From Flavobacterium restrictum (lineage in GTDB: Bacteria > Bacteroidota > Bacteroidia > Flavobacteriales > Flavobacteriaceae): a DNA stretch of 64,000 bases. Made by a program: the position numbers and the translations under genes. The notes under the pieces were generated by a model. It ran no database searches. It saw only the letters and a program-made list of their open reading frames with translations, and was not told the DNA's origin. The DNA lies in contig NZ_VJZT01000001.1 in NCBI RefSeq assembly GCF_007097245.1, forward strand, positions 434,001 to 498,000. Direction: 5' to 3'. This document shows, one piece after another, positions 26,401 through 54,442 of this stretch; within the stretch, counting starts at the first letter, position 1, and every line of letters begins with the position of its first letter.

Positions 26401-26466
26401 CTAGGAATTATATAACTTATTCTTCACATTATATAACACTTAATCAATTTAAAACATCATATTTGG
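26401..26466 (+). promoter_or_regulatory. Two-box (TTATATAAC) stress-type promoter, site 1
   Basis: CTAGGAAT is followed by TTATATAAC boxes at 26408-26416 and 26429-26437 (21 nt apart), and by a TATTTG -7-like element at 26460-26465. This is the clearest member of the seven-site family; it matches 30 of 37 positions of the site at 51106. It drives the AraC-type gene. Confidence 0.65.
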
Positions 26467-26488
26467 TAAAAAAATAAATGAACTTATT

Positions 26489-27055
26489 TTGAGAGTTTAT
26501 ATCAAATACATGGTTAGCAATCGCTGCAAACTAGTAGTGCGAGACGAACTCAACAAATTGGGTCTTCATTTTATTGTAGTCGATTTAGGCGAAGTCGAAA
26601 TTATGGAAAACCTCAATTCCGAGAAAAGAGCCTTGCTAAAACAACATTTACTCGAATGCGGTTTGGAATTAATGGATGATAAAAAAGCCATTTTAATCGA
26701 GAAAATCAAAACTATCATCGTCCAAATGGTACACCATTCCGAGGAAACCATCAAAGTCAATTTTTCGGATTATTTGTCCCAAAAACTAGACCACAACTAC
26801 TCCTATCTTGCCAGTATGTTCTCCGAAGTGCAAGGAATGACCATCGAACATTTTATCATTTCCCACAAAATCGAACGCATCAAAGAACTGCTTATTTACG
26901 GCGAATACAACATTACCGAAATCGCTTGGAAAATGGGCTACAGCAGTGTGGCGCATTTGTCGAGTCAATTCAAGAAAACCACAGGATTGTCCCCATCGCA
27001 TTTCAAACAACTCAAAAATAAGCGCAGAACATCGATTGAAGATATTGGTAATTAA
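26489..27055 (+). CDS. AraC-family transcriptional regulator (short flavobacterial type)
   Basis: 188 residues. The C-terminal ~100 residues are an AraC double helix-turn-helix: NYSYLASMFSEVQGMTIEHF, HKIERIKELLIYGEYNITEI, then AWKMGYSSVAHLSSQFKKTT, then GLSPSHFKQ. The N-terminal half (VVDLGEVEI) is a short domain with no recognised ligand fold. The listed start is a TTG at 26489 (MRVYIKYMVSNRCK); the ATG at 26510 gives a 181-residue form. It is controlled by a two-box promoter and sits 10 nt before the hybrid kinase gene, so the two may be one operon. Confidence 0.88.
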   Translation: MRVYIKYMVSNRCKLVVRDELNKLGLHFIVVDLGEVEIMENLNSEKRALLKQHLLECGLELMDDKKAILIEKIKTIIVQMVHHSEETIKVNFSDYLSQKLDHNYSYLASMFSEVQGMTIEHFIISHKIERIKELLIYGEYNITEIAWKMGYSSVAHLSSQFKKTTGLSPSHFKQLKNKRRTSIEDIGN

Positions 27056-27065
27056 TTTTAATAAC

Positions 27066-30029
27066 ATGAGCCCCTCAAAAAAATCAGAAAACACAAACTA
27101 TAAATCCGATGATTTATTTTTTGATATGTTTGAAAACAGTGCTATTGGAATGATTATTACGGTTATTGATACCGAAAAATTTCAATTTGTAAATAAGGCT
27201 TTTCTTAAATCTATGGGCTTTACAAGAAACGAAATTATAGGCAAAACATCTGCAGAAACCGGAATTGTTATCCCAGAATTTCATAAAAAAACAATACTGC
27301 AATTGTTTCAAAAGGACAAAGTAAATACCATAGAAATCGTTCTAAATAATAAAAAAGGCGAACCGTTCTGGTTTTTAGCCTCCATTCAAGCTATACAATT
27401 TCAAGGCAAAAAATGCTCTTTAACGTCATTTATTGATATTTCAAAATCAAAAAAAAATGCCGAAGAATTAAGTAATGCCAATCAAAAATTATCTTTTCAA
27501 AACAATGAAAAAGAAAAACGGGCTAATGAATTATTGATTGCTAATGAGGAATTAGAATATCAAAATACAATCAAAGAAAAACGAGCTGCTGAATTAGTGG
27601 TTGCGAATAAAGAACTGGCTTTTCAGAACGATGAAAAAGAAAAACGAGCCGCCGAGTTGGTAATTGCTAACAAAGAACTGCTGTTTCAAAGGGGCGAAAA
27701 GCAAAATCGTGCTGATGAGTTGGATATTGCCAATATCGAATTGGCGCATCAACAAACGGAAAAACAAAACCGCGCTGACGAGTTGGATATTGCCAATATT
27801 GAATTGGCGCACCAACAATCCGAAAAATCAAATCGTGCCGATGAGTTGGATATTGCCAATATTGAACTGGCGCACCAACAAACGGAAAAGCAAAACCGTG
27901 CCGATGAATTGGATATTGCCAATATTGAATTGGCACACCAACAAGCCGAAAAGTCGAATCGTGCCCTTGAACTCGGAATTGCAAATATCGAATTGGCACA
28001 CCAACAATCCGAAAAACAAAATCGGGTCGATGAACTCAAAATAGCAACTATTGAACTAAATTTTCAAAAAAATCTAGCGCAACAGCAAGCCTATTCTCGC
28101 AGTTTGATTGAGGCCAGCCGCGATCCGTTATTTACGATAAGTCCCCAAGGAAAAATTACCGATGTCAACAAAGCCAGCGTTCGGGTTACAGGAGTTTCAC
28201 AAAACGACTTAATAGGATCTGATTTTATAGGGTATTTTACAGACCCTGAAAAAGCAAAAGACGGTTACGAAACCATTTTCAACGAAGGATTTGTAATCGA
28301 TTTTCCATTGACCATAAAAGACCATAAATTGACCGATGTCCTTTTTAATGGTTCGGTTTATAAAGACCAAAACAATACTGTAATTGGAGCTGTGGCTGTG
28401 GCTCGTGACATTACACTCCAAAAAGCATTAGAAAAAGAACTAACCGAAGCCAAAGTTTTTGCGGAACACGCAACATCCATCGCTGAACGCGCTACCATAG
28501 TTGCAAATGAATCCGTAAAATCAAAACAGCAATTCTTGTCGAATATGAGCCACGAAATTCGTACGCCAATGAACGCCATCATCGGTTTTACAAAAGTGGT
28601 ACTCAAAACAGAGCTTTCTGCCAAACAAAAAGAATACTTGACTGCTATAAAAATGAGTGGCGATGCGCTAATTGTACTCATCAATGACATTCTAGATTTG
28701 GCCAAAGTCGATGCTGGAAAAATGACTTTTGAAAAAACACCTTTCAAACTCAAATTGTCCATAAAAGCGATGTTGCACCTTTTTGAAACCAAAATCCAAG
28801 AGAAAAACCTCCAATTAATAACAAATTACGACGCCAGCATCCCAGAAGTTTTAGTAGGAGATCCAGTAAGGTTACACCAAATAATATTAAATTTAGTAAG
28901 TAATGCAGTGAAATTTACCAATAGAGGAAAAATAACCGTAAGCGTCCTCTTGGTTACGGAAAATGAGCACAAAGCAACCGTAAAATTCTCGGTTGCCGAT
29001 ACTGGAATAGGAATAAAAAACACCAAAATCGAAAAAGTTTTTGAGAATTTTCAGCAAGCCACCAGCGGTACTTCCCGTTTGTTTGGCGGTACTGGATTGG
29101 GACTTGCTATTGTAAAACAACTCGTTGAAGCCCAAAACGGAAAAATAGAAGTTGCCAGTGAGGAGAACAAAGGTTCCGTTTTTAGTTTTAGTTTAGATTT
29201 TAAAAAAACCAATGCCGATGCGGTGCTTGAACCCGAAATTCTAGAATTAAATACCGATATCAAGGACATCAAAATCCTAGTTGCCGAGGATATGGAACTC
29301 AACCAATTACTGATGAAAACGCTTTTGGATGATTTTGGTTTTGAATGCGAAATTGCAGGAAACGGAAAAATTGCCATCGAAAAACTACTTACCAAGACCT
29401 ACGATATTATCTTGATGGATTTGCAAATGCCTGAAATGAATGGTTTTGATGCCACAAAATACATTCGTAAAATACTAAAAATGGACATCCCAATCATTGC
29501 TCTCACAGCGGATGTAACCACCGTTGATGTCGAAAAATGCAAAGAAGTAGGAATGAACGATTACATTTCCAAACCAGTTGATGAACGATTATTGTACAGC
29601 AAACTGATAAGCGTTATCAAAAAACCAGTACTCATTATTGAAGAAAAAAGAAAGGGAAACACCATCATCGAAAAGATGAAATATGTGGATATGAGTTATT
29701 TGTTAAAACTAACCAAATCCAACCCAAAACTAATGACCGAAATGATCCGCGTTTATTTAAAACAAACGCCCCCACTTGTCAGGACGATGAAACAAAGTTT
29801 TCTGGACAAAGATTGGCATTTGCTACAAGCCACCATTCACAAGATGCTCCCGTCGTTTACCATCATGGGAATCAATCCCGAAATTGCCGCCGTTGCTCAT
29901 AAAATTCAAGAATTTGCTCATAAACTCGAAATTTCCGATGACTTGGATCAGCTAGTTGACCAAATCGAAAACGTGTGCAACCAAACTTTTATAGAACTCG
30001 AAATCGAACTTACCAATCTAAATAAATAA
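27066..30029 (+). CDS. Hybrid sensor histidine kinase (PAS, repeats, PAS, HisKA, HATPase, REC, Hpt)
   Basis: 987 residues, no membrane segment. Domains in order: PAS at about 15-125 (MFENSAIGMIITVID); a charged coiled coil of nine 21-residue repeats at 148-336; a second PAS at about 345-465 (LIEASRDPLFTISPQGKITD); HisKA with H496 in MSHEIRTPMNAIIGF; HATPase with GTGLGLAIVKQLVE; a receiver with acceptor D785 in ILMDLQMPEMNGFD; and an Hpt-like C-terminus with H925 in ATIHKMLPSF. It is a cytoplasmic phosphorelay sensor. I start at the ATG at 27066 (MSPSKKSENTN), since upstream codons overlap the AraC gene. The receiver gene at 30034 is its likely partner. Confidence 0.93.
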   Translation: MSPSKKSENTNYKSDDLFFDMFENSAIGMIITVIDTEKFQFVNKAFLKSMGFTRNEIIGKTSAETGIVIPEFHKKTILQLFQKDKVNTIEIVLNNKKGEPFWFLASIQAIQFQGKKCSLTSFIDISKSKKNAEELSNANQKLSFQNNEKEKRANELLIANEELEYQNTIKEKRAAELVVANKELAFQNDEKEKRAAELVIANKELLFQRGEKQNRADELDIANIELAHQQTEKQNRADELDIANIELAHQQSEKSNRADELDIANIELAHQQTEKQNRADELDIANIELAHQQAEKSNRALELGIANIELAHQQSEKQNRVDELKIATIELNFQKNLAQQQAYSRSLIEASRDPLFTISPQGKITDVNKASVRVTGVSQNDLIGSDFIGYFTDPEKAKDGYETIFNEGFVIDFPLTIKDHKLTDVLFNGSVYKDQNNTVIGAVAVARDITLQKALEKELTEAKVFAEHATSIAERATIVANESVKSKQQFLSNMSHEIRTPMNAIIGFTKVVLKTELSAKQKEYLTAIKMSGDALIVLINDILDLAKVDAGKMTFEKTPFKLKLSIKAMLHLFETKIQEKNLQLITNYDASIPEVLVGDPVRLHQIILNLVSNAVKFTNRGKITVSVLLVTENEHKATVKFSVADTGIGIKNTKIEKVFENFQQATSGTSRLFGGTGLGLAIVKQLVEAQNGKIEVASEENKGSVFSFSLDFKKTNADAVLEPEILELNTDIKDIKILVAEDMELNQLLMKTLLDDFGFECEIAGNGKIAIEKLLTKTYDIILMDLQMPEMNGFDATKYIRKILKMDIPIIALTADVTTVDVEKCKEVGMNDYISKPVDERLLYSKLISVIKKPVLIIEEKRKGNTIIEKMKYVDMSYLLKLTKSNPKLMTEMIRVYLKQTPPLVRTMKQSFLDKDWHLLQATIHKMLPSFTIMGINPEIAAVAHKIQEFAHKLEISDDLDQLVDQIENVCNQTFIELEIELTNLNK
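27507..28073 (+). repeat. Nine tandem 63-bp coding repeats in the kinase gene
   Basis: Nine 21-codon units of the form EKQNRADELDIANIELAHQ, residues 148-336 of the kinase. Units 4-8 are nearly identical in DNA; the outer units are diverged (EKEKRANELLIANEELEYQ). They predict a long coiled-coil signalling helix between the PAS domains. The homogeneous middle part is prone to expansion or contraction in steps of 63 bp. Confidence 0.9.
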
Positions 30030-30033
30030 CATC

Positions 30034-30468
30034 GTGCCAAAAGAAAACAAAATAAAATTATTCCTAGTCGATGACGATGCTGTATTTTTGAAATCGCTCG
30101 AAATTCAGTTCCTAGATCACGCAAATTTGGACATAGAAACCTTTGCTACAGGCGAATTATGCCTTGCTAACATCGCTCAAAATCCTGATATTGTAATCCT
30201 GGATTTTCACCTTGACGGAATAGATCGAACCGCTATAAACGGACTAGAAACATTAGACAAAATCAAAGATTTCAATCCTAAAATCCCTGTAATAATGCTC
30301 TCTAGCCAAGACAAAATTGATGTTGCCATCAGTTGTATGCACCACAAAGCATCGGATTATATTGTAAAATCCGAAACCGCATTTGTTCGGCTTCAAAAAG
30401 CTATTGAAACCATTTTTAAATACCAAAAAATGGAAAAAGAATTGAATTGGTACATGGAAAGAATGTAA
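30034..30468 (+). CDS. Single-domain response regulator
   Basis: 144-residue CheY-like receiver with no output domain. Acidic pocket in LFLVDDDAVFLKSLE; acceptor Asp in IVILDFHLDG; Ser/Thr in VIMLSSQDKID; switch Lys in DYIVKSETAF. The start is a GTG at 30034, 4 nt after the kinase stop, so it is translationally coupled to the kinase. As a lone receiver it may act as phosphate shuttle between the kinase Hpt domain and an unknown target, or bind a partner protein. Confidence 0.9.
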   Translation: MPKENKIKLFLVDDDAVFLKSLEIQFLDHANLDIETFATGELCLANIAQNPDIVILDFHLDGIDRTAINGLETLDKIKDFNPKIPVIMLSSQDKIDVAISCMHHKASDYIVKSETAFVRLQKAIETIFKYQKMEKELNWYMERM

Positions 30469-30520
30469 GGATTTTGATTTCAAAGTGCTGAAATTGATTT
30501 TTGAAATTGCCATCATAAAC

Positions 30521-30729
30521 CAGGGCATTCGCTTTTAAAATTTTTCACCACAAATTCCACAAATTTTCACAAATTCAAAGTCTGTTTTTGGTATGTTTGA
30601 GTTAATTATGATGTTATTGACGGGTTCATTTTTGAGTAAATTTGTGTAATTTGTGTAATTTGTGTAATTTGTGTAATTTGTGTAATTTGTGGTTAAAGAA
30701 AATTATGCTTTTTAAAAGCGAATGCCCTG
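30521..30729. repeat. 209-bp intergenic inverted repeat element
   Basis: The ends are perfect 20-bp inverted repeats (30521-30540 and 30710-30729). Further in, the left arm contains CACCACAAATTCCACAAATT and the right arm the complementary TTTGTGTAA tandem array followed by TTTGTGGTTAAA. It thus can fold into one long hairpin and has the look of a small non-autonomous element, but it has no target duplication I can identify. It fills most of the 360-nt gap between the receiver gene and the lipoprotein gene; the rest holds promoter site 2. Confidence 0.7.
30641..30692. repeat. 9-bp tandem repeat (TTTGTGTAA)
   Basis: Five perfect copies of TTTGTGTAA at 30641-30685 followed by TTTGTGG, inside the right arm of the inverted-repeat element. 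A microsatellite-like array whose copy number could vary. Confidence 0.9.
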
Positions 30730-30736
30730 TCATAAA

Positions 30737-30802
30737 ACAGCAATCTTATAACATTTCACAAAAATTCTATAACGGTTTTTATTGTTTTCAAATGCAACTT
30801 TG
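30737..30802 (+). promoter_or_regulatory. Two-box promoter, site 2 (lipoprotein)
   Basis: Boxes TCTTATAAC (30744-30752) and TTCTATAAC (30765-30773), 21 nt apart, and CAACTTTG at 30795-30802 at the same offset as in the other sites. The ATG is 27 nt downstream of the -7 element. Confidence 0.55.
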
Positions 30803-30828
30803 TAAAACAATTTTAAAGTATAGAAAAA

Positions 30829-31245
30829 ATGAACAAAGCAATCGTAATCCTCGCCATAGCAGCAGGAACAATTTTTACTTCTTGCAAATCGGCCAATCAA
30901 AAACAAGCGACAGCCCAACAAAATGCAACAGAAGCCAATCAGGATTTGACAAACACGCAAGCATCCAATGTTGCTGAATGGAAAGCTTTCAAAGCCGAAT
31001 CACAAGCAAAAATTCTCGATAATGAGCAACGAATTGCTAATTTGAAAGAAAAAATGAATAAACCAGGCAGCACTTTCGACGGAATATACCGTACTCGAAT
31101 CGAAAAACTCGAAGCCAAAAACAACGATCTCAAAGCAAAATTAAACAACTACGACGGCAACCAAACCGATTGGCAAACATTCAAAAGCGATTTTAATCGA
31201 GATATGGACGAAATTGGAAACAACATAAAAGATTTGTTTAGATAA
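30829..31245 (+). CDS. Small coiled-coil lipoprotein
   Basis: 138 residues. Type II signal peptide with lipobox TSC (Cys19), followed by a Gln/Ala/Asn-rich linker and two predicted helical segments: WKAFKAESQAKILDNEQRIA, then TRIEKLEAKNNDLKAKLNNY. The end is DMDEIGNNIKDLFR. It is likely anchored in the outer or inner membrane facing the periplasm. Family unrecognised; similar short helical lipoproteins are common in Bacteroidota stress loci. It is driven by a two-box promoter and precedes the P-type ATPase by 62 nt. Confidence 0.75.
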   Translation: MNKAIVILAIAAGTIFTSCKSANQKQATAQQNATEANQDLTNTQASNVAEWKAFKAESQAKILDNEQRIANLKEKMNKPGSTFDGIYRTRIEKLEAKNNDLKAKLNNYDGNQTDWQTFKSDFNRDMDEIGNNIKDLFR

Positions 31246-31307
31246 GATTTTTAATACCATAACCACCAAAGGTAGGATTAATTTCTTGCCTTTTTTTAAT
31301 TAAAGCA

Positions 31308-34885: not shown

Positions 34886-34912
34886 CAATGGGTTAATTAA
34901 ACCAATTTTAAA

Positions 34913-35000
34913 AATGGTACCCAGATGAAACGAATTTAAACCGATAAAAATCGATTCGTATATATCAATCAGCAAAAATCTGTGTCATCTGTGTACCATT
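34913..35000. repeat. Imperfect inverted repeat after the AI-2E gene
   Basis: AATGGTACCCAGATGA from 34913 pairs with TCATCTGTGTACCATT ending at 35000, with mismatches, and the AATCTGTGTCATCTGTG core resembles widespread flavobacterial intergenic repeats. The 169-nt gap holds nothing else I recognise. Confidence 0.6.
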
Positions 35001-35054
35001 ATTGAATTGTTAGTCCTCTTGGCGGACACCCCAAAAAAAAATAAAAACAACCAA

Positions 35055-36380: not shown

Positions 36381-36446
36381 CTAGTAATTTTGTAAGTTAT
36401 ACCCAAAGTTCTACAACACTATAAACTGCAAATAATCAGAATTTTA
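36381..36446 (+). promoter_or_regulatory. Two-box promoter, site 3 (GH130 operon)
   Basis: CTAGTAAT, then degenerate boxes TTTTGTAAG and TTCTACAAC at the same 21-nt spacing, and GAATTTTA at the -7 offset (36439-36446). It matches the site at 51106 in 27 of 37 positions, and a second block at offset 56 (AGAATTTTACAA) is also shared. An extra TAATTTTG at 36465-36472 is an alternative -7 element. Confidence 0.6.
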
Positions 36447-36498: not shown

Positions 36499-37533
36499 AT
36501 GTTAAATGTTAAAAAGGAAGGAATTGTTTTAGAAAAAACAACATTGGATTTTGAAAACGAAGGGGTTCTAAATCCAGCTGCCATTCGGGAGGGGGAATTT
36601 GTGCATTTGTTTTATCGAGCGGTGCAAAAAGGAAATCATTCGACCATAGGCTATTGCAAGTTAGATGGGCCACTGGAAATTGAAGACCGTCATTACAAAC
36701 CCATTTTGATTCCTGAATTCGACTACGAGTCACAAGGTCTTGAGGATCCCAGATTAGTAAAAATTGAGGATACCTACTATTTAACTTATACGGCTTACGA
36801 TGGCGTAAATGCTCTAGGATGCTTGGCAACTTCTACTGATTTGGTTCATTTTGAAAAAAAAGGAATTCTAGTGCCACAAATTACGTATGAAGAATTTCAC
36901 CACTTATCCAAAACAAATTCAAGCATCAATTCTAAATATTTCCGGTACAATCAGCACGAAGGAATTCTGGAAAAAGAAGGTGTAAAAATGCTGGTTTGGG
37001 ACAAAAATATTATTTTTTTTCCAAGAAAAATCAATGGAAAATTCTTTTTCATGCACCGCATCAAACCCGAAATTCAAATTGTGGTTGGGATCGAAAAGCT
37101 AGAAGATTTAACGCTTTCTTTTTGGAAAAATTACTTACTCAATTTTGATGATTATGCCTTGCTTTCGCCAAAATATCCTCACGAAATCAGTTATATCGGC
37201 GGAGGCTGTCCCCCAATTGAAACCCCGCAAGGTTGGTTACTGATTTACCACGGCGTAAAAGACGATGTTAATGGGTATGTCTATTCCGCTTGTGCTGCCC
37301 TATTGGATTTAGAAAATCCCGAAAAAGAAATTGCTCGATTGCCCTACCCCTTGTTCAAACCCGAATATGTATGGGAATTAAAAGGTGAAGTCAACAACGT
37401 GTGTTTTCCTACGGGAGCGGTTGTTTTTGACGATAAATTATACATTTATTACGGAGCCGCCGATGAACGAATTGCTTGTGCATCAGTCGTTTTGTCTGAT
37501 TTAATAACGGAATTAATGCTTAACTTAAAATAA
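36499..37533 (+). CDS. GH130 beta-mannoside phosphorylase-like enzyme
   Basis: 344-residue five-bladed beta-propeller of glycoside hydrolase family 130, whose members phosphorolyse or hydrolyse beta-1,4- or beta-1,2-mannosides. The conserved catalytic-acid segment is LEDPRLVKIED with D83. Also seen: NPAAIREGEFVHLFYRAV, PRKINGKFFFMHRI, GGGCPPIETPQGWLLIYHG and IYYGAADERIACAS. The sugar bond is not determined. It precedes the glycosyltransferase gene by 2 nt, so the two act together, perhaps making and mobilising a mannoside as a compatible solute or capsule. Confidence 0.88.
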   Translation: MLNVKKEGIVLEKTTLDFENEGVLNPAAIREGEFVHLFYRAVQKGNHSTIGYCKLDGPLEIEDRHYKPILIPEFDYESQGLEDPRLVKIEDTYYLTYTAYDGVNALGCLATSTDLVHFEKKGILVPQITYEEFHHLSKTNSSINSKYFRYNQHEGILEKEGVKMLVWDKNIIFFPRKINGKFFFMHRIKPEIQIVVGIEKLEDLTLSFWKNYLLNFDDYALLSPKYPHEISYIGGGCPPIETPQGWLLIYHGVKDDVNGYVYSACAALLDLENPEKEIARLPYPLFKPEYVWELKGEVNNVCFPTGAVVFDDKLYIYYGAADERIACASVVLSDLITELMLNLK

Positions 37534-37535
37534 AT

Positions 37536-39971
37536 ATGAGAACGACACTATCTGCCCATCAAAACACCCTTTTCTCCACTAGAAAAAACCAAAAACACCA
37601 TGCAAAATCTAATACTAATACCATCGAAAATCCAAATAGTTTGCCTGAAATTCTATTTATTACATCATATCCACCTCGCGAATGTGGTATTGCTACTTAT
37701 TCCCAAGATTTAATTTTGGCGTTGAATAACAAATTCCAAAAATCGTTTGACATAAAAATTTGTGCGTTGGAATCGGAATTTGAAAAACAACATTATCCAG
37801 ATGAAGTTAATTACATTTTGGAAACGGACAATCAAAAATCTTATCTCGATTTAGCCGCAAATATCAACGAAAATAACACCATTTCGATGATGGTTATCGA
37901 ACATGAATTTGGGTTATTTAGATCCAATGAAGCGGATTTTATGGCATTTTTACAATCCGTAAACAAACCCATTATTGTTGCTTTTCATACCGTTTTGCCC
38001 AATCCAAATGCTTTGTTGAGAGAAAACGTCCAAAAAATTGACAAAATCGTCCAATCCATAATCGTAATGACACAATCATCGGCTAAATTATTAGTACATG
38101 ATTATGCGATTGCAAAAGATAAAATTGCTGTAATTCCGCACGGAACTCATTTGGTGGAGCATACCAACAAAGATTTTTTGAAAGAAAAATACAACTTTGC
38201 AGGACGAAAAATAATAGCTACTTTTGGATTGTTAAGCTCCGGAAAATCCATCGAAACCTCTATCAACGCATTGCCTACTATTGTCAAAAAACACCCTGAA
38301 GTGTTGTTTTTGGTCATTGGAAAAACACATCCAACAGTTGTAAAAAATGAAGGAGAAAAATACCGTTCCACACTCGAAGCCCAAATAACCGCTTTGAATT
38401 TGAATGCTAATGTGTTGTTCATCAATCAGTATTTGCCTTTAAACGAGCTACTAGAATACCTGCAACTTACTGATATTTATCTATTTACATCCAAAGATAG
38501 GAATCAAGCCGTTTCGGGAACTTTTTCGTATGCCATCAGTTGTGGTTGCCCCATCATCTCCACTCCTATTCCGCATGCTGTCGAGGTTTTGCAAAACGGA
38601 ACAGGCATTATCATCGATTTTGAAAATCCAAAACAATTGGCAAAGCAAGTTACTCTTTTGCTGGATAATGAGTCCCTTCGCAACGAAATATCCTCAAACG
38701 GAATCCATAAATTAGCCCCAACCGCTTGGGAAAACTCGGCGATTGCTCACGCTTTATTATTCGAAAAAATAAGCCATGAAAAAATCGAATTGCATTATAA
38801 AATTCCAGCTATAAACTGGAATCATTTCAAGAAAATGACTACTGATTTTGCCATGATTCAGTTTTCGATTATCAATCAACCGGACTTAAATTCAGGCTAT
38901 ACGCTTGATGATAATGCGCGCGCTTTGGTGGCTATGTGTCAAAATTATGCACTAAAAAAGGAGTCAAACGATTTAAAATACATCCAAAAATATTTGGATT
39001 TTATAGCCTTTTGTCTGCAACCCGAATGTCATTTTTTGAATTATGTAGATACCAATAAAAAATTCACAACACAAAATTCCGAAAACCTAAACGACTCCAA
39101 TGGAAGAGCAATTTGGGCACTAGGATATTTGATTTCTATAAGTGATTTATTGCCTATCGAACTGGAAATAAAAGCCAAAAAAACACTGCAATTAGCCTTG
39201 GTCCAAGTACATAAAATCCATTCGCCGCGAGCCATGGCATTCATTATTAAAGGAATTTATTACAGTAATACCACAAATTATCTTGAGGAAAATACGTTTG
39301 TTCTAAAACAGTTGTCGGATCGATTGGTACAAATGTACAAACACGAAACAGATGAAAATTGGCAATGGTTTGAACCCTATTTGACCTATGGAAATAGCAT
39401 CTTGCCAGAAGCGATGTTGTGTGCCTATCGAGCAACAAACATGGATGTGTATCGAGAAATTGCCAAAACGTCTTTTGATTTTTTGTTGACCAAAATTTTC
39501 AAAAACAACACTATAAAAGTAATTTCAAACAAAGGTTGGCTGCATAATGACAACAAAATACACCCAGATAAAATTGGTGGCGAACAACCCATCGATGTAG
39601 CGTATACGATTTTGGCGTTAAGCAAATTCTACGAAACGTTCCAACAAACGGATTATTTAAACAAAATGGAAGTAGCTTTCGATTGGTTTTTGGGCAAAAA
39701 TCATTTGCATCAAATAGTCTATAATCCCTGTACCGGCGGATGCTACGACGGTTTAGAAGATACCTATATCAACCTTAATCAAGGTGCCGAATCCACCGTA
39801 AGCTACGTAATGGCACGATTAACTATTGAAAAATATTTGGTCAAAAAGAGTCAAAAAATTCCAAACAAAACACCTTTTTCAAAAAAAATAGTAGTGCCTC
39901 AAAAAGTAACGATTGAAAATACCAATCAACCCAAAAAGTGGATTGAATTTGCAGCTATTAATTTGTTGTAA
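37536..39971 (+). CDS. GT4 glycosyltransferase with C-terminal alpha-helical domain
   Basis: 811 residues. The N-terminal ~430 residues are a GT-B glycosyltransferase family 4 module: TSYPPRECGIATYSQDLILA, VIEHEFGLFRSNEADF, IPHGTHLVEH, then FGLLSSGKSIETSINALPTI and the nucleotide-sugar site SGTFSYAISCGCPIISTPIP. From about residue 440 a helical alpha/alpha-barrel-like domain follows (DDNARALVAM, NDSNGRAIWALGYLI, GGEQPIDVAYTILALS), as in six-hairpin glycosidases. The fusion and the paired GH130 gene are a recurring Bacteroidota arrangement. It probably transfers mannose; the acceptor is unknown. No signal peptide; cytoplasmic. Confidence 0.85.
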   Translation: MRTTLSAHQNTLFSTRKNQKHHAKSNTNTIENPNSLPEILFITSYPPRECGIATYSQDLILALNNKFQKSFDIKICALESEFEKQHYPDEVNYILETDNQKSYLDLAANINENNTISMMVIEHEFGLFRSNEADFMAFLQSVNKPIIVAFHTVLPNPNALLRENVQKIDKIVQSIIVMTQSSAKLLVHDYAIAKDKIAVIPHGTHLVEHTNKDFLKEKYNFAGRKIIATFGLLSSGKSIETSINALPTIVKKHPEVLFLVIGKTHPTVVKNEGEKYRSTLEAQITALNLNANVLFINQYLPLNELLEYLQLTDIYLFTSKDRNQAVSGTFSYAISCGCPIISTPIPHAVEVLQNGTGIIIDFENPKQLAKQVTLLLDNESLRNEISSNGIHKLAPTAWENSAIAHALLFEKISHEKIELHYKIPAINWNHFKKMTTDFAMIQFSIINQPDLNSGYTLDDNARALVAMCQNYALKKESNDLKYIQKYLDFIAFCLQPECHFLNYVDTNKKFTTQNSENLNDSNGRAIWALGYLISISDLLPIELEIKAKKTLQLALVQVHKIHSPRAMAFIIKGIYYSNTTNYLEENTFVLKQLSDRLVQMYKHETDENWQWFEPYLTYGNSILPEAMLCAYRATNMDVYREIAKTSFDFLLTKIFKNNTIKVISNKGWLHNDNKIHPDKIGGEQPIDVAYTILALSKFYETFQQTDYLNKMEVAFDWFLGKNHLHQIVYNPCTGGCYDGLEDTYINLNQGAESTVSYVMARLTIEKYLVKKSQKIPNKTPFSKKIVVPQKVTIENTNQPKKWIEFAAINLL

Positions 39972-39974: not shown

Positions 39975-40040
39975 CTATGAATTTTACTAAAAACAGCAAG
40001 AGTTATATAACCTATTGATAATCAATAATGACCAACTTTG
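39975..40040 (+). promoter_or_regulatory. Two-box promoter, site 4 (BON gene)
   Basis: CTATGAAT, degenerate box TTTTACTAA (39982-39990), TTATATAAC (40003-40011) and CAACTTTG at 40033-40040. The palindrome ATTGATAATCAAT lies between box 2 and the -7 element. It starts only 3 nt after the glycosyltransferase stop codon. Confidence 0.65.
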
Positions 40041-40076: not shown

Positions 40077-40739
40077 ATGAAAACAAATGAAAGTTTACAA
40101 ATCGATGTGCAAGATGCCATCAAATGGGAACCGCTTTTGCACGCCGCCGAGATTGGTGTAGCCGTAAAAGATGGGGTGGTAACACTAACAGGAACGGTTG
40201 ACAATTACATCAAAAAAACCGAAGCCGAGATTGCTGCCAGAAACGTAAAAGGCGTAAAAGCGGTAGTCGAAAAAATCGAAATCAAATACAACAATTCTTG
40301 GGATATAAAATCAGATTTGGATATTGCTAACGAGGTAATTAGCGCTTTGCGATGGAATTGGAATGTACCAAACGATACCGTAAAAGTCAAAGTCGAAGGC
40401 GGTTGGGTAACCCTAGACGGCGATTTGACTTGGAATTATCAGCGGGAAGCTGCCCGAAATGCCATTCAAAATCTCGAAGGTGTAAAGGGAATTTACAATA
40501 ACATCAAAATCAAATCGGACAATACTGATACTATTGAAAAAGCGGCAATAGAAAAAGCACTTTCTAGAAACTGGAGCATCAACGATAATGACATTGAAGT
40601 CGATGTCAAAGCCAACGAGGTGACCCTAACAGGAGCGGTTACCTCCTATTATCAAAAAGACGAAGCCGAGAGAATTGCTTGGAAAGCACCAGGAGTAAGT
40701 GCTGTCAACAACGAGCTTACCGTGGGTTATTACGAATAG
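40077..40739 (+). CDS. Triple BON-domain protein
   Basis: 220 residues made of three BON domains at about 2-70, 75-145 and 150-220. Each has the LxxAxxxxxxIxVxVxxGxVTLxGxV pattern, for example IGVAVKDGVVTLTGTV, VKVEGGWVTLDGDL and VDVKANEVTLTGAV. BON domains bind phospholipid or membranes and are found in osmotic-stress proteins such as OsmY. No signal peptide is visible, so it is predicted cytoplasmic or exported by another route. It is one of the seven genes with the two-box promoter. Confidence 0.9.
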   Translation: MKTNESLQIDVQDAIKWEPLLHAAEIGVAVKDGVVTLTGTVDNYIKKTEAEIAARNVKGVKAVVEKIEIKYNNSWDIKSDLDIANEVISALRWNWNVPNDTVKVKVEGGWVTLDGDLTWNYQREAARNAIQNLEGVKGIYNNIKIKSDNTDTIEKAAIEKALSRNWSINDNDIEVDVKANEVTLTGAVTSYYQKDEAERIAWKAPGVSAVNNELTVGYYE

Positions 40740-45936: not shown

Positions 45937-45948
45937 AATAAAATAGCA

Positions 45949-46947: not shown

Positions 46948-46985
46948 GTTCCTTGTCCTAAAATTTCATTAAATAATTTCAAATC

Positions 46986-47873: not shown

Positions 47874-47884
47874 ACTATTTTACA

Positions 47885-48241: not shown

Positions 48242-48441
48242 GTAAGTCGAAAGTTTAAAAGTGGTAAAGTCAAATGAAGTAATATTGATGTTAATTATTC
48301 AAAATCAGTATATTACTTAATTTTATCTAGTTTTAAAACACGACATTATACGATGATTGCTATTTAGCTTAAAAAAAAATGACTAATTACAGCAAAAATC
48401 AAGAATCACAAAAAAAATATCTAACAATCAAAAATAAAACA

Positions 48442-48837: not shown

Positions 48838-48904
48838 TTTCAAAAATAAAATAAAGAGTTCTTTAAAATTTTTCAATCTTTTATATTAAATATTAGAAGT
48901 ATAA

Positions 48905-49510
48905 TTACAAATAATTGACTTGTAAAACCTTCAAATTGGCATCAAAAACATACTTTTTTGGGATACCCGTTGGAATGTTCAAATTTGAAATATGTTCAGG
49001 GCTAATATGCTCTAAATACATCACTAAAGCCCGCAAACTATTGCCGTGAGCCACAATCAAAATGGTTTGATCCAATTTTAATTGTGGCTCAATTGCGTGT
49101 TGATAAAACGGAATCGTTCGCTTGAAAGTGTCTTCTAAACTTTCGCCATTGGGCGGACGAATGGCATAACTTCTTCGCCAAATTTCGACTTGCTTCAATC
49201 CATATTTTGCAATGGTTTCGTCTTTATTCAAACCTTGCAAACTACCGTAATCTCTTTCGTTCAAAGCTTTGTCAAGAATGATGGGAATGTTATTTTGATG
49301 GATTTCCTCCAGAATAATTCGCAAACTTTCCTGCGCTCTTTTCAATGTCGAAGTATAGGCAAAATCAAATGTGTAACCCACCAATTTTTGTCCAGCCCAT
49401 TGCGCTTCTTTTGCGCCCAATGCGGTCAAACCAATGTCCAAACTGCCTGTAAAACGGTTTTCGAGATTGTAAATCGATTGTCCGTGGCGGATTAAAATGA
49501 GTGTTGCCAT
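48905..49510 (-). CDS. gpmA: 2,3-bisphosphoglycerate-dependent phosphoglycerate mutase
   Basis: 201-residue histidine-phosphatase-fold phosphoglycerate mutase. Phospho-His in LIRHGQSIYNLENRFTG, the ERDYGSLQGLNKDE segment, the second His in LIVAHGNSLRALVMYL. It interconverts 3- and 2-phosphoglycerate in glycolysis. It is shorter than the 230-250 of classical GpmA but has all catalytic residues, so a related broad phosphatase is possible. It is divergent from dps with a shared upstream region. Confidence 0.85.
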   Translation of the reverse strand: MATLILIRHGQSIYNLENRFTGSLDIGLTALGAKEAQWAGQKLVGYTFDFAYTSTLKRAQESLRIILEEIHQNNIPIILDKALNERDYGSLQGLNKDETIAKYGLKQVEIWRRSYAIRPPNGESLEDTFKRTIPFYQHAIEPQLKLDQTILIVAHGNSLRALVMYLEHISPEHISNLNIPTGIPKKYVFDANLKVLQVNYL

Positions 49511-49566
49511 ACCTTTTTATTTATTTGATATAAAGATAACTAAACTCCTCATAATCAATTAAAAAA

Positions 49567-49632
49567 CTATGAATTATACAAGATTCCATTCTTTTTGTAT
49601 AACAAAAAAACAGTTTTTGATTGGCAACTTTG
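49567..49632 (+). promoter_or_regulatory. Two-box promoter, site 5 (dps)
   Basis: CTATGAAT, box ATTATACAAG (49573-49582), box TTGTATAAC (49595-49603) and CAACTTTG at 49625-49632, the same offset as the other sites. The ATG of dps is 25 nt downstream. Confidence 0.65.
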
Positions 49633-49656
49633 TGGTTATAAATTAAAAATTTTATT

Positions 49657-50130
49657 ATGAAACCAAACATCGGAATTACAGAAAAAAACACGGAGGCAGT
49701 AGCTAATTATTTGCAGAAATTATTGGCAGATGAATTTGTACTTTATACCAAAACCAAAAACGCACACTGGAATATAGAAGGTGCCGATTTTTATGATGTT
49801 CATAAATTTTTTGAATCACAATTTGGTCAAATTGACGAAATTACGGATAACATTGCCGAGCGAATTCGTGCCATTGGGCATTATACCGCCTCATCATTGA
49901 AAAATTTTTTAAGTTTGACACATCTTTCAGAAGTTACGGAACATCAAAATGATAGTCAAGGTTTTATGCGTGAATTGTTAGAAAGTCACGAAAGTATTAT
50001 CCTTTATATTCGAGAAATTATTACGCCTATTAGCGATGATTTTAAGGATTTAGGCACCGCCGATTTTGTAACTGGACTTATAGTAACCCACGAAAAAATG
50101 GCTTGGTTTTTAAGAGCGCATTTAAAATAA
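49657..50130 (+). CDS. dps: Dps-family DNA-protection ferritin
   Basis: 157-residue Dps protein forming a 12-mer that oxidises Fe2+ with H2O2 and protects DNA. The ferroxidase ligands at the dimer interface are visible in TKNAHWNIEGADFYDVHKFF and QIDEITDNIAERIRAIG. Length and helices fit the family. It is controlled by a two-box promoter and begins a group with the FMN reductase and a membrane protein. Confidence 0.95.
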   Translation: MKPNIGITEKNTEAVANYLQKLLADEFVLYTKTKNAHWNIEGADFYDVHKFFESQFGQIDEITDNIAERIRAIGHYTASSLKNFLSLTHLSEVTEHQNDSQGFMRELLESHESIILYIREIITPISDDFKDLGTADFVTGLIVTHEKMAWFLRAHLK

Positions 50131-50142
50131 AAACTCAAAATC

Positions 50143-50691
50143 ATGCACATTTCAATTCTATCATCAAGTATCAGAACAGGTCGAAAAAGCCACAATATAG
50201 CCCTTTATTTCCAACACTTTTTAAACGAAAATAGGCTAGCAACCGTCGAAATTTTGGATCTGGCATCCTATAATTTTCCACTTTTTGAATCCCCACTAAA
50301 ATACCAACCCAATCCGAGTAGGATTGCATTGGAATTTAAAAGTAAAATTGTTGCTTCGGACGGAATTATCATTGTAACTCCAGAGTACAATGGCAGTATT
50401 CCTGCCAGTTTAAAAAATGCAATCGATTTATTGTACGAAGAATGGCAAGGAAAACCCATTGCTTTTTCGACGGCTTCGTCAGGCGATTTTGGTGGGTTGC
50501 AAGCAATCACCCATTTGCAATTTATATTTTGGAAAATTGGTGCGCTGTGTGTTTCTAAAAACTTTCCAGTATCCAAAGTTCAAGAGAAATTTGACGAATT
50601 TGGTCTTCCAATTGACCCTCAAGAAATGGATGAATTTGCACAAATTTTTATCGATAATTTTTTGAAATGTGTTGAAGTAAGTCAAAAATAA
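50143..50691 (+). CDS. NADPH-dependent FMN reductase-like protein
   Basis: 182-residue flavodoxin-fold protein of the NADPH-FMN reductase family. FMN-phosphate loop near SSSIRTGRKSHNIA; VTPEYNGSIPASLKNAIDLL is the hallmark stretch; STASSGDFGGLQAI follows. It reduces FMN or quinones with NAD(P)H, limiting oxidative damage. It starts 12 nt after dps and its stop overlaps the next start by one base. Confidence 0.9.
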   Translation: MHISILSSSIRTGRKSHNIALYFQHFLNENRLATVEILDLASYNFPLFESPLKYQPNPSRIALEFKSKIVASDGIIIVTPEYNGSIPASLKNAIDLLYEEWQGKPIAFSTASSGDFGGLQAITHLQFIFWKIGALCVSKNFPVSKVQEKFDEFGLPIDPQEMDEFAQIFIDNFLKCVEVSQK

Positions 50692-51077
50692 TGGATTTGG
50701 CTACCCAATTAATCTGGCTTTTTGTACTTGCAATTCCCATTGCCTGTGTGGCTTGGACGGTTACGCACGAGGAAATTTTCAAAGAGCCACGAGATTTTTG
50801 TGTTCGGAAAAGTCAAAATTCCAAAACAATAGTGCAGCGCAAACTATTCTATCTTTTTACTTGCGAATATTGTTTTAGTCATTATGTGAGCTTGTTTTTC
50901 ATCTTTTTCACGGACTTTAAATTGCTTTTAGACGATTGGCGAGGTTATGCCATTGCGCTGTTTTCGTTGGTTTGGATTGCCAATGTTTATATGAGTCTTT
51001 TTGCTTTTATTCGGCAAGATATTAAAAGAGAAAAATGTGAAATTGAAGAAATTCAAAGTCATACAAAAAAATTATAG
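50691..51077 (+). CDS. Small membrane protein with a cysteine pair
   Basis: 128 residues with two or three helices (LIWLFVLAIPIACVAWTV, YVSLFFIFFTDFKLLL, YAIALFSLVWIANVYMSL) and a CEYC motif just before the second helix. No named family recognised. TAATG overlap with the FMN reductase gene implies translational coupling, so it may serve a redox role at the membrane; that is inference. Confidence 0.75.
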   Translation: MDLATQLIWLFVLAIPIACVAWTVTHEEIFKEPRDFCVRKSQNSKTIVQRKLFYLFTCEYCFSHYVSLFFIFFTDFKLLLDDWRGYAIALFSLVWIANVYMSLFAFIRQDIKREKCEIEEIQSHTKKL

Positions 51078-51105
51078 CAAACCCATTCCAAAAAAAATCC
51101 AAAAT

Positions 51106-51171
51106 CTAGGAATATTACAACTTATTCTAAAAGTTATATAACAGTTTAAAACCCTAATATATAGAATTTTA
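51106..51171 (+). promoter_or_regulatory. Two-box promoter, site 6 (PA2169-type gene)
   Basis: CTAGGAAT, degenerate box TATTACAAC (51113-51121), TTATATAAC (51134-51142) and GAATTTTA at 51164-51171. 30 of 37 positions match site 1 at 26401, and 27 of 37 match site 3 at 36381. Confidence 0.68.
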
Positions 51172-51205
51172 CAAAACAAAATAACAAACTTTAAATCATA
51201 TAAAA

Positions 51206-51679
51206 ATGGAAAACGAGAACATAATTGAAGTATTAAACTCCTTAATTATAATCAATAACGACCGAATCGAGGGTTATAAAACCGCCGAAGCAGAGGCCAA
51301 AGAAACCGATTTGAAAATGCTTTTTGGAGATTTGATGGAAACCAGCGTACAAAACCGAAAAGAGTTAGTCGCCGAGGTAACTCGATTGGGAGCAACTCCA
51401 GATGAAGGCACGCGAGTTACCGGAAAATTCTTTAGAGTTTGGATGGATGTCAAAGCCGCTTTTACAGGAAGCGATCGAAAAGCAATTCTGGATTCCTGCG
51501 AATATGGCGAAGATGTAATTCTTGATACCTACAAGAAAATCCTAATTCAAGATCATCAAGAAGTTCGTCCAAGAGAACAAGATATGCTCAACAAACACTA
51601 TGCGTTGCTCAAAGCAGATCACGACAAAGTGAAACAATTGCGTGATATCATTGCCAACGAAAAAAGACTTCAAGAATAG
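51206..51679 (+). CDS. PA2169-family four-helix-bundle protein (DUF2383)
   Basis: 157-residue ferritin-like four-helix bundle of the PA2169/DUF2383 family. Seen: NSLIIINNDRIEGYKTAEAE, the Glu-rich helix ETDLKMLFGDLMETSVQNRK, and KKILIQDHQEVRPREQDML. Members appear in stress and stationary-phase clusters; their biochemical role is unknown. It has one of the clearest two-box promoters. Confidence 0.88.
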   Translation: MENENIIEVLNSLIIINNDRIEGYKTAEAEAKETDLKMLFGDLMETSVQNRKELVAEVTRLGATPDEGTRVTGKFFRVWMDVKAAFTGSDRKAILDSCEYGEDVILDTYKKILIQDHQEVRPREQDMLNKHYALLKADHDKVKQLRDIIANEKRLQE

Positions 51680-51729
51680 TTGGTAATCGTTTTTAACTAA
51701 ATTGTCCATTTTGATTAAAAACGAGTACT

Positions 51730-51796
51730 AAATAGTATTTGTCAAGAGAAGAAGTTGTCACCAAAATAAAAGTTTTGGTACTAACAAATACTATTT
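51730..51796. repeat. Nested hairpin downstream of the PA2169-type gene
   Basis: Outer arms AAATAGTATTTGT (51730-51742) and ACAAATACTATTT (51784-51796) are perfect complements; an inner stem ACCAAAA/TTTTGGT lies at 51760-51779. Possibly part of the terminator of the preceding gene. Confidence 0.7.
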
Positions 51797-51801
51797 TTTT
51801 T

Positions 51802-51834
51802 AACCTACACGTTTTTTTATATCGTGTAGGTTTT
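51802..51834 (+). terminator. Intrinsic terminator
   Basis: AACCTACACG (51802-51811) pairs with CGTGTAGGTT (51823-51832) and runs into TTT. It separates the PA2169-type gene from the mlaE-like operon. Confidence 0.85.
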
Positions 51835-51850
51835 CTTAATAACAGCCATT

Positions 51851-52612
51851 ATGATCCAATCCTACTTTAAAGATATTTGCGAAGAAACTGGAAATTTTGC
51901 CCTTTTTGGGGGACGATTTTTCCGAGAAATTGTCAAACTTCCGTTTCAAATCAACGAGTTTTTTCGGCAATGTTATGCCATTGGCTATAAATCCTTGCCT
52001 TTGGTTTCCATCACTGGTTTTATAATGGGATTGGTTTTGACCATTCAATCCCGTCCTACAATGACCAAGTTTGGAGCCGAAAGTTGGTTGCCCAGCATGG
52101 TTTCGTTATCCTTGATTCGAGAAATTGCCCCCGTGATTACTGCCTTGATTTGTGCTGGCAAAATAGCCTCGGGAATAGGAGCTGAATTGGGCTCGATGAA
52201 AGTTACCGAACAAATAGACGCTATGGAAGTTTCGGCCATAAATCCCTATAAATACTTGGTGGTGACCCGCATTTTAGCAACCACTTTAATGGTACCAATA
52301 TTAGTTATTTATGCCGATTTTGTGGGTGTTTTTGGAGGATATATCGGTTTCAACGTACACGGCGATATGGGATTGTACCGCTATTTTTCGGATGTTTTTG
52401 AGCATTTGGAATTTCTCGATTTGATGCCTGCCGTAATCAAAACCTTTTTCTTTGGTTTTTTTATAGGTTTAATAGGCTGTTACAAAGGATTTAATGCCTC
52501 CAGCGGAACCGCAAGCGTAGGTATTGCTGCCAACGAAGCCGTGGTTTCGGCATCGCTCGCCATCTTTATTATCGATATGATGGCGGTGCAACTAACCGAT
52601 TTGTTTTTTTAG
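51851..52612 (+). CDS. mlaE: MlaE-family ABC transporter permease
   Basis: 253-residue lipid-transport permease of the MlaE family with about five helices. Hallmarks: ALICAGKIASGIGAELGSMK, VTEQIDAMEVSAINPYKYLV and FFIGLIGCYKGFNASSGTAS. In an outer-membrane bacterium it maintains lipid asymmetry by moving phospholipid with the ATPase and MCE protein encoded next. The ATPase gene begins 5 nt downstream. Confidence 0.92.
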   Translation: MIQSYFKDICEETGNFALFGGRFFREIVKLPFQINEFFRQCYAIGYKSLPLVSITGFIMGLVLTIQSRPTMTKFGAESWLPSMVSLSLIREIAPVITALICAGKIASGIGAELGSMKVTEQIDAMEVSAINPYKYLVVTRILATTLMVPILVIYADFVGVFGGYIGFNVHGDMGLYRYFSDVFEHLEFLDLMPAVIKTFFFGFFIGLIGCYKGFNASSGTASVGIAANEAVVSASLAIFIIDMMAVQLTDLFF

Positions 52613-52617
52613 AAATT

Positions 52618-53352
52618 ATGCCAAACGAAACCATCATATCCATCAAAAACCTATGGAAATCATTCGGAAAAAATGACGTCTTAAAAGGCGTAAATCTCAC
52701 TGTAAACAAAGGCGAAGATTTGGTAATTCTAGGACGTTCAGGCTCTGGAAAATCGGTTACTATAAAATGTTTGGTCGGCTTGGTCGAAGCCGATAAAGGC
52801 AAAATAGCAGTTTTTGGAACCGATATTACCAACCTTAAAAACGAAGAATTGAACAAAATCCGAGTTCGAGTAGGATTTATGTTCCAAAACGGCGCCTTGT
52901 ACGACTCCATGTCGGTGCGACAAAATCTGGCTTTTACGCTAAAACACCACACCAAAGATTTATCTGATGAAGAAATCGAAAAAAAAATCATCGAAGCCCT
53001 AGAAAATGTGGGTTTAAAGGAAGCCATCGACACCATGCCAGCCGAATTATCGGGCGGTATGCGCAAGCGAATAGGACTCGCTAGAACGCTCATCATAAAC
53101 CCCGAAATCATTTTGTATGACGAACCAACCTCTGGTTTGGACACCATAACGTCACGAGAAATTAGTGAATTGATTCTTTCGGTACAAAAAAAATACAAAA
53201 CCACATCCATCATCATCACCCACGATATGGCTTGTGCTAAAATGACCGGAAACCGAATTATGATTCTCAAAGACGGCGTAATCAATGCCGAAGGAACCTA
53301 TGATGAATTAGAAAAAAGCGAAGACGAATGGGTGCGGTCGTTTTTTATATAA
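52618..53352 (+). CDS. mlaF: MlaF-family ABC ATPase
   Basis: 244-residue ATP-binding subunit. Walker A GRSGSGKSVT, Q-loop in GFMFQNGALYDSM, signature LSGGMRKR, Walker B IILYDEPTSGLD, switch His in IIITHDMACAKM. It powers the MlaE-type permease. It lies in an operon with the permease and the MCE protein. Confidence 0.93.
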   Translation: MPNETIISIKNLWKSFGKNDVLKGVNLTVNKGEDLVILGRSGSGKSVTIKCLVGLVEADKGKIAVFGTDITNLKNEELNKIRVRVGFMFQNGALYDSMSVRQNLAFTLKHHTKDLSDEEIEKKIIEALENVGLKEAIDTMPAELSGGMRKRIGLARTLIINPEIILYDEPTSGLDTITSREISELILSVQKKYKTTSIIITHDMACAKMTGNRIMILKDGVINAEGTYDELEKSEDEWVRSFFI

Positions 53353-53376
53353 TCCCATCAACCCTTTCAACCCTCA

Positions 53377-53407
53377 ACCCTGTCAGGGTTTTGAACCCTG
53401 ACAGGGT
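53377..53407. repeat. Solo CCCTGTCAGGG palindrome
   Basis: Perfect 14-bp stem (53377-53390/53394-53407) with the same TTG loop and the same sequence as the core of the hairpin inside framework copy B (40821-40859). Sits in the 73-nt gap between the ATPase and MCE genes. Confidence 0.88.
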
Positions 53408-53425
53408 ATTAAACAAATAAAAATT

Positions 53426-54373
53426 ATGAAAAAATCTTCAAATTATACCTGGAAATTAGGAATGTTTGTCCTCTTGGGAATCACATTGTTTACCGTAACA
53501 ATCTATTTTATAGGCAAAAGCAAAAATTTGTTTGGATCCAATTTTCATCTCAAATCACATTTCAAAAACGTCAGCGGACTCAAAGTGGGCAACAATGTCT
53601 TGTTCTCTGGCATCACAGTAGGAACGATTAAAAACATCGAATTTATAACCGATTCGGTCGTGGTGGTGGACTTGATTATAAAGGAAGAAATCCAGCAATT
53701 TATCAAAACCGATGCCATTGCCAGCATAGGATCCGATGGCTTGATGGGCGACAAAGTTTTGACCATTTCGCCCGGAACATCCTCCAACGAAATCGTAAAA
53801 GACAACGCCACCATTGGCTCTACACAAGCTATAGAACTCGAAGATTTGATGAAGGGATTAAAAAAAAGCGTGGATAATGCTCAAATTGTAACGCTACAAT
53901 TATCCGAATTTAGCACCAAAATCAACAAAGGAAAAGGCGCATTGAACAAAGTCTTGACCGACGAAGAATTTGCAAATGGCGTACAAAAAATGATGACCAA
54001 TTTGCAATTAAGCTCCACCGAATTTCTCGTTTTCACCAAAAAAATGAACGACGAAAACGGCACATTATCCAAGTTGATGACCAATCCCGACTATGCCAAT
54101 TCAATCGAAAAAACACTCCACAATCTCGAAAAAAGTTCCAATGAATTCAACGCTTTTACCCAAAAACTAAACTCGGACAAAGGCATTTTGTCTAAATTGG
54201 TTACCAACGAACGTTTAGCAACATCACTGGACTCGTCCTTGACTAACATCGAAAAAGGTTCCAAAGAGTTGCTGGAAATCGAGGAAGCCGCCAAACATAA
54301 TTTCTTGTTGCGAGGTTTTTTTAAGAAAAAGAAAAAAGCCGAGGAACAAAAAAAATTGGTATCTGAAAAGTAA
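53426..54373 (+). CDS. mlaD: MCE/MlaD-family lipid-transport protein
   Basis: 315 residues: an N-terminal membrane helix (LGMFVLLGITLFTVTIYFIG), then an MCE domain at about 40-120 (FKNVSGLKVGNNVLFSGITV, DKVLTISPGT), then a long helical periplasmic region with three related segments (GKGALNKVLTDEEFANG, ENGTLSKLMTNPDYANS, DKGILSKLVTNERLATS), each about 50 residues. It forms a lipid-shuttling ring that docks on MlaE. The C-terminus is Lys-rich. Probably the third gene of the MlaEFD operon. Confidence 0.92.
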   Translation: MKKSSNYTWKLGMFVLLGITLFTVTIYFIGKSKNLFGSNFHLKSHFKNVSGLKVGNNVLFSGITVGTIKNIEFITDSVVVVDLIIKEEIQQFIKTDAIASIGSDGLMGDKVLTISPGTSSNEIVKDNATIGSTQAIELEDLMKGLKKSVDNAQIVTLQLSEFSTKINKGKGALNKVLTDEEFANGVQKMMTNLQLSSTEFLVFTKKMNDENGTLSKLMTNPDYANSIEKTLHNLEKSSNEFNAFTQKLNSDKGILSKLVTNERLATSLDSSLTNIEKGSKELLEIEEAAKHNFLLRGFFKKKKKAEEQKKLVSEK

Positions 54374-54376
54374 AAC

Positions 54377-54442
54377 CTTTACATTATATAAAACCTACAA
54401 ATAACTATATAACAATTATTTAAAATAGTTTAAATAAATTTA
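54377..54442 (+). promoter_or_regulatory. Two-box promoter, site 7 (74-residue protein gene)
   Basis: TTATATAAA (54384-54392) and CTATATAAC (54405-54413), 21 nt apart, then TAAATTTA at 54435-54442, matching TAnnTTTG with one change. The CTATGAAT prefix is not kept. It follows the mlaD stop at once. Confidence 0.6.

Follow-up and report, generated by a model that had tools for sequence, protein, structure and literature searches.

The window, that is, the whole stretch of 64,000 nt from Flavobacterium restrictum that was analysed (positions 434,001 to 498,000 of contig NZ_VJZT01000001.1), contains seven sites on the forward strand, each of which lies upstream of a gene in the same orientation. 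Site 1 (26401..26466), with box 1, box 2 at a period of 21 and the -7 element TATTTG, begins 88 nt upstream of the start of a gene for an AraC-type regulator of 188 aa (26489..27055, TTG start). Site 2 (30737..30802, -7 element CAACTTTG) precedes a gene for a lipoprotein that resembles the sll1863 stress family below the model cut-off (30829..31245), which is followed by cation ATPase, AI-2E-type and BrkB-type genes up to 35966. Site 3 (36381..36446, -7 element GAATTTTA) is located upstream of a GH130 phosphorylase gene (36499..37533), and the next gene encodes a GT4-type glycosyltransferase (37536-39971). The gene downstream of Site 4 (39975..40040, -7 element CAACTTTG) encodes a triple-BON protein (40077..40739), which resembles OsmY, again below the model cut-off, and the same-strand genes after it, up to 48241, include members of the OsmC, DJ-1, DnaJ, and aldehyde dehydrogenase families. 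Site 5 (49567..49632, -7 element CAACTTTG) precedes genes for a Dps-like ferritin (49657..50130) and an FMN reductase (50143-50691), and Site 6 (51106..51171, -7 element GAATTTTA) a gene for a four-helix-bundle protein of the DUF2383/PA2169 family (51206..51679), with MlaE, ABC ATPase, and MlaD genes behind it up to 54373. Site 7 (54377..54442, -7-like AAATTTA) lies upstream of a gene for a small protein of 74 aa (54504..54728), for which the family search gave no match.

The AraC gene is the first of three genes. The second encodes a hybrid histidine kinase (27066..30029, forward strand) with the domain order PAS-PAS-HisKA-HATPase-receiver and a likely HPt end, and the third a stand-alone receiver protein (30034..30468, forward strand, GTG start), in which Pfam reports no DNA-binding domain. 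The listed open reading frame of the kinase, from 26946, begins within the AraC gene, and the ATG at 27066 was used as its start. The end of the kinase aligns with the ArcB model, the HPt model of Pfam is not reported there, and a hydrophobic stretch of the kind that spans membranes was not seen in the protein. Between its PAS domains the kinase has a run of repeats of about 20 residues (ADELDIANIELAHQQ..., window positions 27500-28060), and the length of the kinase differs among relatives. The AraC protein carries HTH_18, the AraC double helix-turn-helix, at its C-terminus, as expected for the AraC/XylS family. Its predicted structure (pLDDT 85.4) shows what appears to be an HMA-like fold at residues 1-64 and the double HTH at about 64-180. 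Within the HMA-like domain, all 29 sequences compared share S10 and C13; the CxxC metal site of HMA-domain proteins is not present, the first Cys being absent (SxxC), and no receiver domain was found in the AraC protein.

This gene order is conserved. Among the 80 AraC loci that were compared (the best 80 of 226 relatives, from named genomes, 71-81% identical), a relative of the hybrid kinase adjoins the AraC gene downstream in 73, and 72 contain a relative of the stand-alone receiver. Most of these loci belong to Flavobacterium, and others come from records labelled Prolixibacteraceae, Chitinophagaceae, Paludibacter, Salinivirgaceae, and further groups, with the proviso that taxon labels of assembled genomes may be wrong. 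AraC is the only protein with a DNA-binding domain in the conserved three-gene module, and none of the three genes encodes a sigma factor. The genome of F. restrictum contains a second AraC-kinase-receiver module on another contig (C12), the proteins of which are 76, 65, and 72% identical, respectively. This second, complete module (L199, G000:C12, about 10186-18797) has Dps and OmpA-type genes of its own, which follow sites of 31-35 bits.

A preliminary description of this DNA had proposed that the seven sites share one promoter architecture, and all seven exist where it had placed them. Sites 26401 and 51106 are identical in 30 of 37 positions and 51106 and 36381 in 27 of 37, as claimed, but the block AGAATTTTACA common to the latter pair lies at offset 57, and not at 56. 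A weight matrix, which had been suggested as a check, was built in leave-one-out fashion: in seven of seven cases, a 38-bp matrix made from six sites ranked the seventh on top when all window positions on both strands were scored and the other six sites were set aside. All seven sites have TT at offsets 62-63. A second matrix was derived from 63 distinct AraC promoters, with letters from other genomes only and with a first round that was seeded with the window matrix. Its top five matches in the window are 51106 (32.8 bits), 26401 (32.6), 36381 (23.4), 49567 (17.2), and 39975 (11.9), compared with 4.9 bits for the best non-site of the window and 7.8 bits for the reversed window. Therefore, random AT-rich DNA, as represented by the reversed controls, does not reach the scores of these five sites, which are clear, and the sites 30737 (5.3 bits) and 54377 (4.3 bits) are weak when taken alone, because they do not score above the reversed window. 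Homologues of the lipoprotein gene at 30829 are found downstream of sites at four places elsewhere (19-32 bits), a homologue of the small protein encoded at 54504 (54% identity, 67 residues) lies downstream of a 31-bit site in another stretch (L209), and Dps homologues follow sites at eight other places, one of them in the same genome.

The search was extended to 101 stretches, comprising the F. restrictum genome, relatives, and the 80 loci with the same AraC gene. At a threshold of >10 bits, 15 matches were found in the own stretches (210,513 bases) versus none in the reversed sequences, 78 versus none in the stretches of relatives (233,646 bases), which had been picked because they hold sites, and 293 versus one in the AraC loci (1,400,240 bases), in total 386 versus one. 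When the weaker of two matches within 25 nt had been dropped, 338 sites in 97 of the 101 stretches were left, 17 of them without a start codon 68-320 nt downstream and three inside a long open reading frame. Some stretches are duplicated (e.g., L207 with L038 and L208 with L034), which was corrected for by counting the sites that are distinct in their first 60 letters. These 325 distinct sites lie upstream of AraC genes (73) and of other gene starts (237, including 233 outside the window), and 15 have no start codon in range; the start codon is located 80-109 nt downstream in 199 of the 310 that have one. At least one site is present in 79 of the 80 AraC loci, at least two in 62, and at least four in 31. 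In the own genome, the exact two-box pattern has seven matches, three in the window and four outside, versus none for the reversed pattern, and six further sites of 18.6-34.8 bits were found on four other contigs. With these six sites and the second module, the regulon is wider than the window. Across genomes, both the shared promoter element and a candidate regulon, previously undescribed and with the AraC gene as a member, are well supported, and the finding is real and larger than originally described. Looser detectors were discarded. The single box CTAKGAATWWTRYAA with one mismatch gave 29 matches in the own genome versus 23 in the control, and a two-box search with up to two mismatches gave 224 versus 110. 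A fourth exact one-box match (G000:C11:414875) has no second box, and the maximum of its stretch is 4.8 bits.

The element can be summarized as GTGTGAATnATRTAACTT-N8-ARTTRTRTAAC, followed by the -7 element AnCTTTG at a fixed place. The consensus of the 325 distinct sites reads gTGTGAATnaTrtAAcTttTtnnnaaArTTrTrTAAca, with AncTTTg at offsets 59-65. The spacing of the two boxes by 21 nt was borne out, as the direct-repeat correlation is 0.69 at 21 and at most 0.28 at the other offsets from 8 to 29. A palindromic operator or a Crp/Fnr-type site was rejected (whole-site reverse-complement correlation 0.06, best inverted centre 0.49). The -7 element lies outside the matrix. T is present at offset 62 in 316 and at offset 63 in 317 of the 325 distinct sites, and TT at offsets 62-63 in 312; at offsets 44-59 the TT count is 2-53 out of 325. 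With one base of slack, the TT is present in 125 of 128 sites from loci with labels other than Flavobacteriaceae. The -7 consensus of Bacteroidota is given as TAnnTTTG in the accessible parts of two reports (PMC10309648; PMC9723704), and the element retains the TTTG of this consensus, its first T (offset 58) not being conserved. No separate -33 element was seen in the sites, the place of which is occupied by box 2. By eye, the two-box element upstream of AraC seems to have a 20-bp period in three loci (L050, L057, and L060).

The AraC gene had been proposed to be itself a member of the regulon, and a site is present upstream of it well beyond F. restrictum: 65 of the 80 other loci have a site of >8 bits 60-135 nt before the AraC start, and in 63 of these the distance is 84-98 nt. 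Of the 15 loci without such a site, a few seem by eye to have a period of 20 bp or a more distant upstream site. Within the genus, 91 genomes including the own were compared, three of which, without a listed best AraC, were entered as 40% identity. The 23 congeners with an AraC of at least 65% identity have a mean of 3.0 exact sites (control 0.13), and two of them have none; the means are 1.0 (control 0.43) for the seven with 55-64% identity and 0.69 (control 0.33) for the 61 with less than 55% or no AraC, 12 of which have at least two sites. A match of >7 bits was found within 500 nt upstream of 22 of 28 AraC copies with at least 65% identity, the remaining six having none, and of 5 of 26 less similar copies. 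Tandem AraC pairs occur in five genomes (G009, G011, G032, G071, and G399), each time without a site for the copy of lower identity (59-65%). Five others (G004, G015, G060, G066, and G079) have exact two-box matches about 420-440 nt upstream of AraC copies with 40-42% identity, and because of these matches paralogues of the HMA-AraC family may share the motif or have related operators.

The promoters of orthologous target genes were also compared, with 29 of 34 GH130 matches and 19 of 27 BON matches tested (one GH130 stretch was too short, and the rest had no locus or were not given). Of 14 genomes with the AraC, 10 have a match of >7 bits before the GH130 orthologue and four have none; of 15 genomes without the AraC, one has such a match, and in this lone case (G148) a 61% identical AraC adjoins the gene. 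In the one pair checked at similar GH130 identity, G031 (74%, AraC present) has the site and G052 (71%, no AraC of at least 65%) lacks it; G014 (GH130 64%, AraC present) has no site. For BON orthologues the site is present in two of two cases with and in 1 of 17 cases without the AraC, numbers that are too small when taken alone. Site counts and the GH130 site follow the presence of this AraC, a co-occurrence that is confounded with relatedness.

Sequence comparison sorted the genes behind the sites into 71 clusters, of which 33 are singletons and 38 are larger, including some spurious open reading frames. They were picked mechanically, as the longest open reading frame starting 68-320 nt past the site, so that some assignments are wrong; proteins of less than 45 aa were excluded from clustering, and clusters were named from one representative each (Pfam) or by similarity to window genes. 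The AraC cluster comprises 75 loci. It is accompanied by ice-binding/Ig-like lipoproteins (34 sites in 22 loci), CsbD-like proteins (24 loci; the single one tested falls below the Pfam cut-off), a small membrane protein (13), OmpA-type proteins (10), GH130 (9), Dps (9), an unnamed KLGIWMDHS family (9), and DUF2383 (6), and further by BON, BrkB, MlaE, and other proteins. In loci not labelled Flavobacteriaceae, ice-binding proteins are found at 10 and CsbD-like proteins at 12 loci, and Dps, DUF2383, and BON are absent behind sites there. Judged by these family names, the targets can be regarded as stress-type.

The conserved direct repeats with a period of 21 bp, fused to an ordinary Bacteroidota-type -7 element, are probably bound by the AraC-type activator that the gene at 26489-27055 encodes; through them, this protein would turn on a stress-type regulon together with its own operon. 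This reading starts from the observed element, with its period, -7 register, orientation, and conservation, and from the module synteny, the co-occurrence, and the target families, and AraC appears to be the best candidate for the protein that binds the element. Class II activation by AraC on tandem sites, combined with positive autoregulation, is the most likely mode of action. Two AraC subunits would sit side by side on one face of the DNA, one per box, and the one farther downstream, in the position of the -33 element, would bring in RNA polymerase carrying the housekeeping sigma factor, in class II style. Through the site before its gene, AraC would positively autoregulate the araC-hybrid kinase-receiver operon. 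The PAS kinase, which looks soluble, would sense an intracellular cue, and phosphate would travel by way of the kinase's own receiver and HPt-like end to the stand-alone receiver. Because AraC itself lacks a receiver domain, the stand-alone receiver would probably control it by protein contact via the HMA-like N-terminal domain with its one invariant Cys. The link between kinase and AraC is a guess.

Alternatively, another regulator, e.g., of the LytTR type or another response regulator, could bind the element, the araC operon being one target among others and AraC using other sites. The period of 21 fits LytTR regulators as well, and the conservation of the receiver protein hints at a role for a phosphorelay. 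However, no LytTR domain was found in the 30 window proteins scanned, the box is unlike the LytTR consensus, and the sites track the presence of this AraC. In addition, AraC-type sites predicted in Bacteroides have nearly the same period, according to the accessible part of that study (PMC3878776). Taken together, we regard a different binder as unlikely.

AraC might also act as a repressor or modulate solely its own operon, and the other genes might have obtained the element by the copying of promoters, which would agree with the clustering of sites near the AraC gene. That the element is found in the same -7 register in front of so many gene clusters and at the six sites on four other contigs, and that box 2 in place of the -33 element suits activation, makes this very unlikely.

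The preliminary description had considered either an activator or an alternative sigma factor as the user of the element. Of the two, the activator is favoured, as the -7 element retains its normal TTTG at a fixed place. For box 2 at the -33 or -35 place, recognition by an alternative (ECF) sigma factor might be envisaged, but the boxes repeat each other, which is needless for a sigma factor, and the module encodes none, so that we consider this extremely unlikely. Chance likeness of AT-rich intergenic DNA, to which the two weak sites, no better than reversed DNA with the matrix from other genomes, and the noise of loose patterns might point, is practically negligible in view of the reversed controls, the leave-one-out ranking, and the fixed -7 register.

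Activation by AraC/XylS proteins on tandem sites is known from E. coli AraC at araI1-I2. The predicted arrangement resembles this case in the period-21 direct repeat, the second box at -35/-33, the class II layout, and the double HTH, but here the N-terminal domain is HMA-like instead of sugar-binding, and the regulon is stress-type and comprises many genes. MarA, SoxS, and Rob bind single marboxes as monomers. These small AraC-family proteins of enterobacteria also control stress genes (PMC10268841, accessible part), and the HTH fold is the same; the two-box element and the linked kinase set the present case apart. Hybrid two-component systems (HTCS) of Bacteroides likewise combine an AraC-type DNA-binding domain and a hybrid kinase with repeats of period 20-21 (PMC3878776; PMC11253607, parts of the text); the predicted motifs are direct repeats of 16+5, 12+9, and 14+6 bp (PMC3878776, same part). 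In HTCS all domains reside in one polypeptide, whereas the kinase and AraC are encoded here by separate genes, AraC has no receiver domain, the kinase looks soluble, and the targets are stress-type instead of polysaccharide loci. Of the promoter classes SM1-SM6 of F. psychrophilum, SM1-3 are TAnnTTTG variants that resemble the -7 element, and the accessible part of the report does not describe a two-box activator element (PMC9723704). Among the papers listed by a literature search, outside of which most subscription journals lay, none describes the regulator, the motif, or the regulon in its title or the beginning of its abstract.

Bacteroidota are not known to have RpoS, SigB, or PhyR-EcfG, and the present results bear on how they organize a broad stress response. 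The RpoS, SigB, and PhyR-NepR-EcfG regulons overlap with the targets found here (Dps, BON/OsmY-like, OsmC, and CsbD-like proteins), but they depend on an alternative sigma factor, in contrast to a predicted activator on housekeeping-type promoters. It is conceivable, although rather doubtful, that a general stress response of scattered Bacteroidota is built from an autoregulated HMA-AraC and a soluble PAS phosphorelay, the receiver of which contacts the HMA-like domain, and that it replaces the logic of these systems, Dps, CsbD-like, BON, ice-binding, and envelope genes being addressed via a class II promoter with two boxes. The odds of this reading are kept low because the AraC is patchy, being present with at least 65% identity in 7 of 296 genomes across the phylum and in 23 of 91 genomes of the genus, the own genome included in both counts; 21 of the 296 have an AraC match at E <= 1e-65. 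Any general stress response run by AraC would therefore cover part of the phylum only.

The analysis yields a candidate regulator, to which a kinase and a receiver are linked, and an exact operator together with the predicted start site; ice-binding and CsbD-like proteins are among the targets listed. The predictions can be tested in Flavobacterium species that are environmental and harmless, and the matrix can be used to annotate regulons in a group with few known activator sites. With regard to the signal, the ice-binding targets are a hint at cold or freezing. The respective cluster (L108:12876-14267, DUF3494-type with Ig-like domains, one representative checked with Pfam) is, by number of sites, the commonest target after AraC itself.
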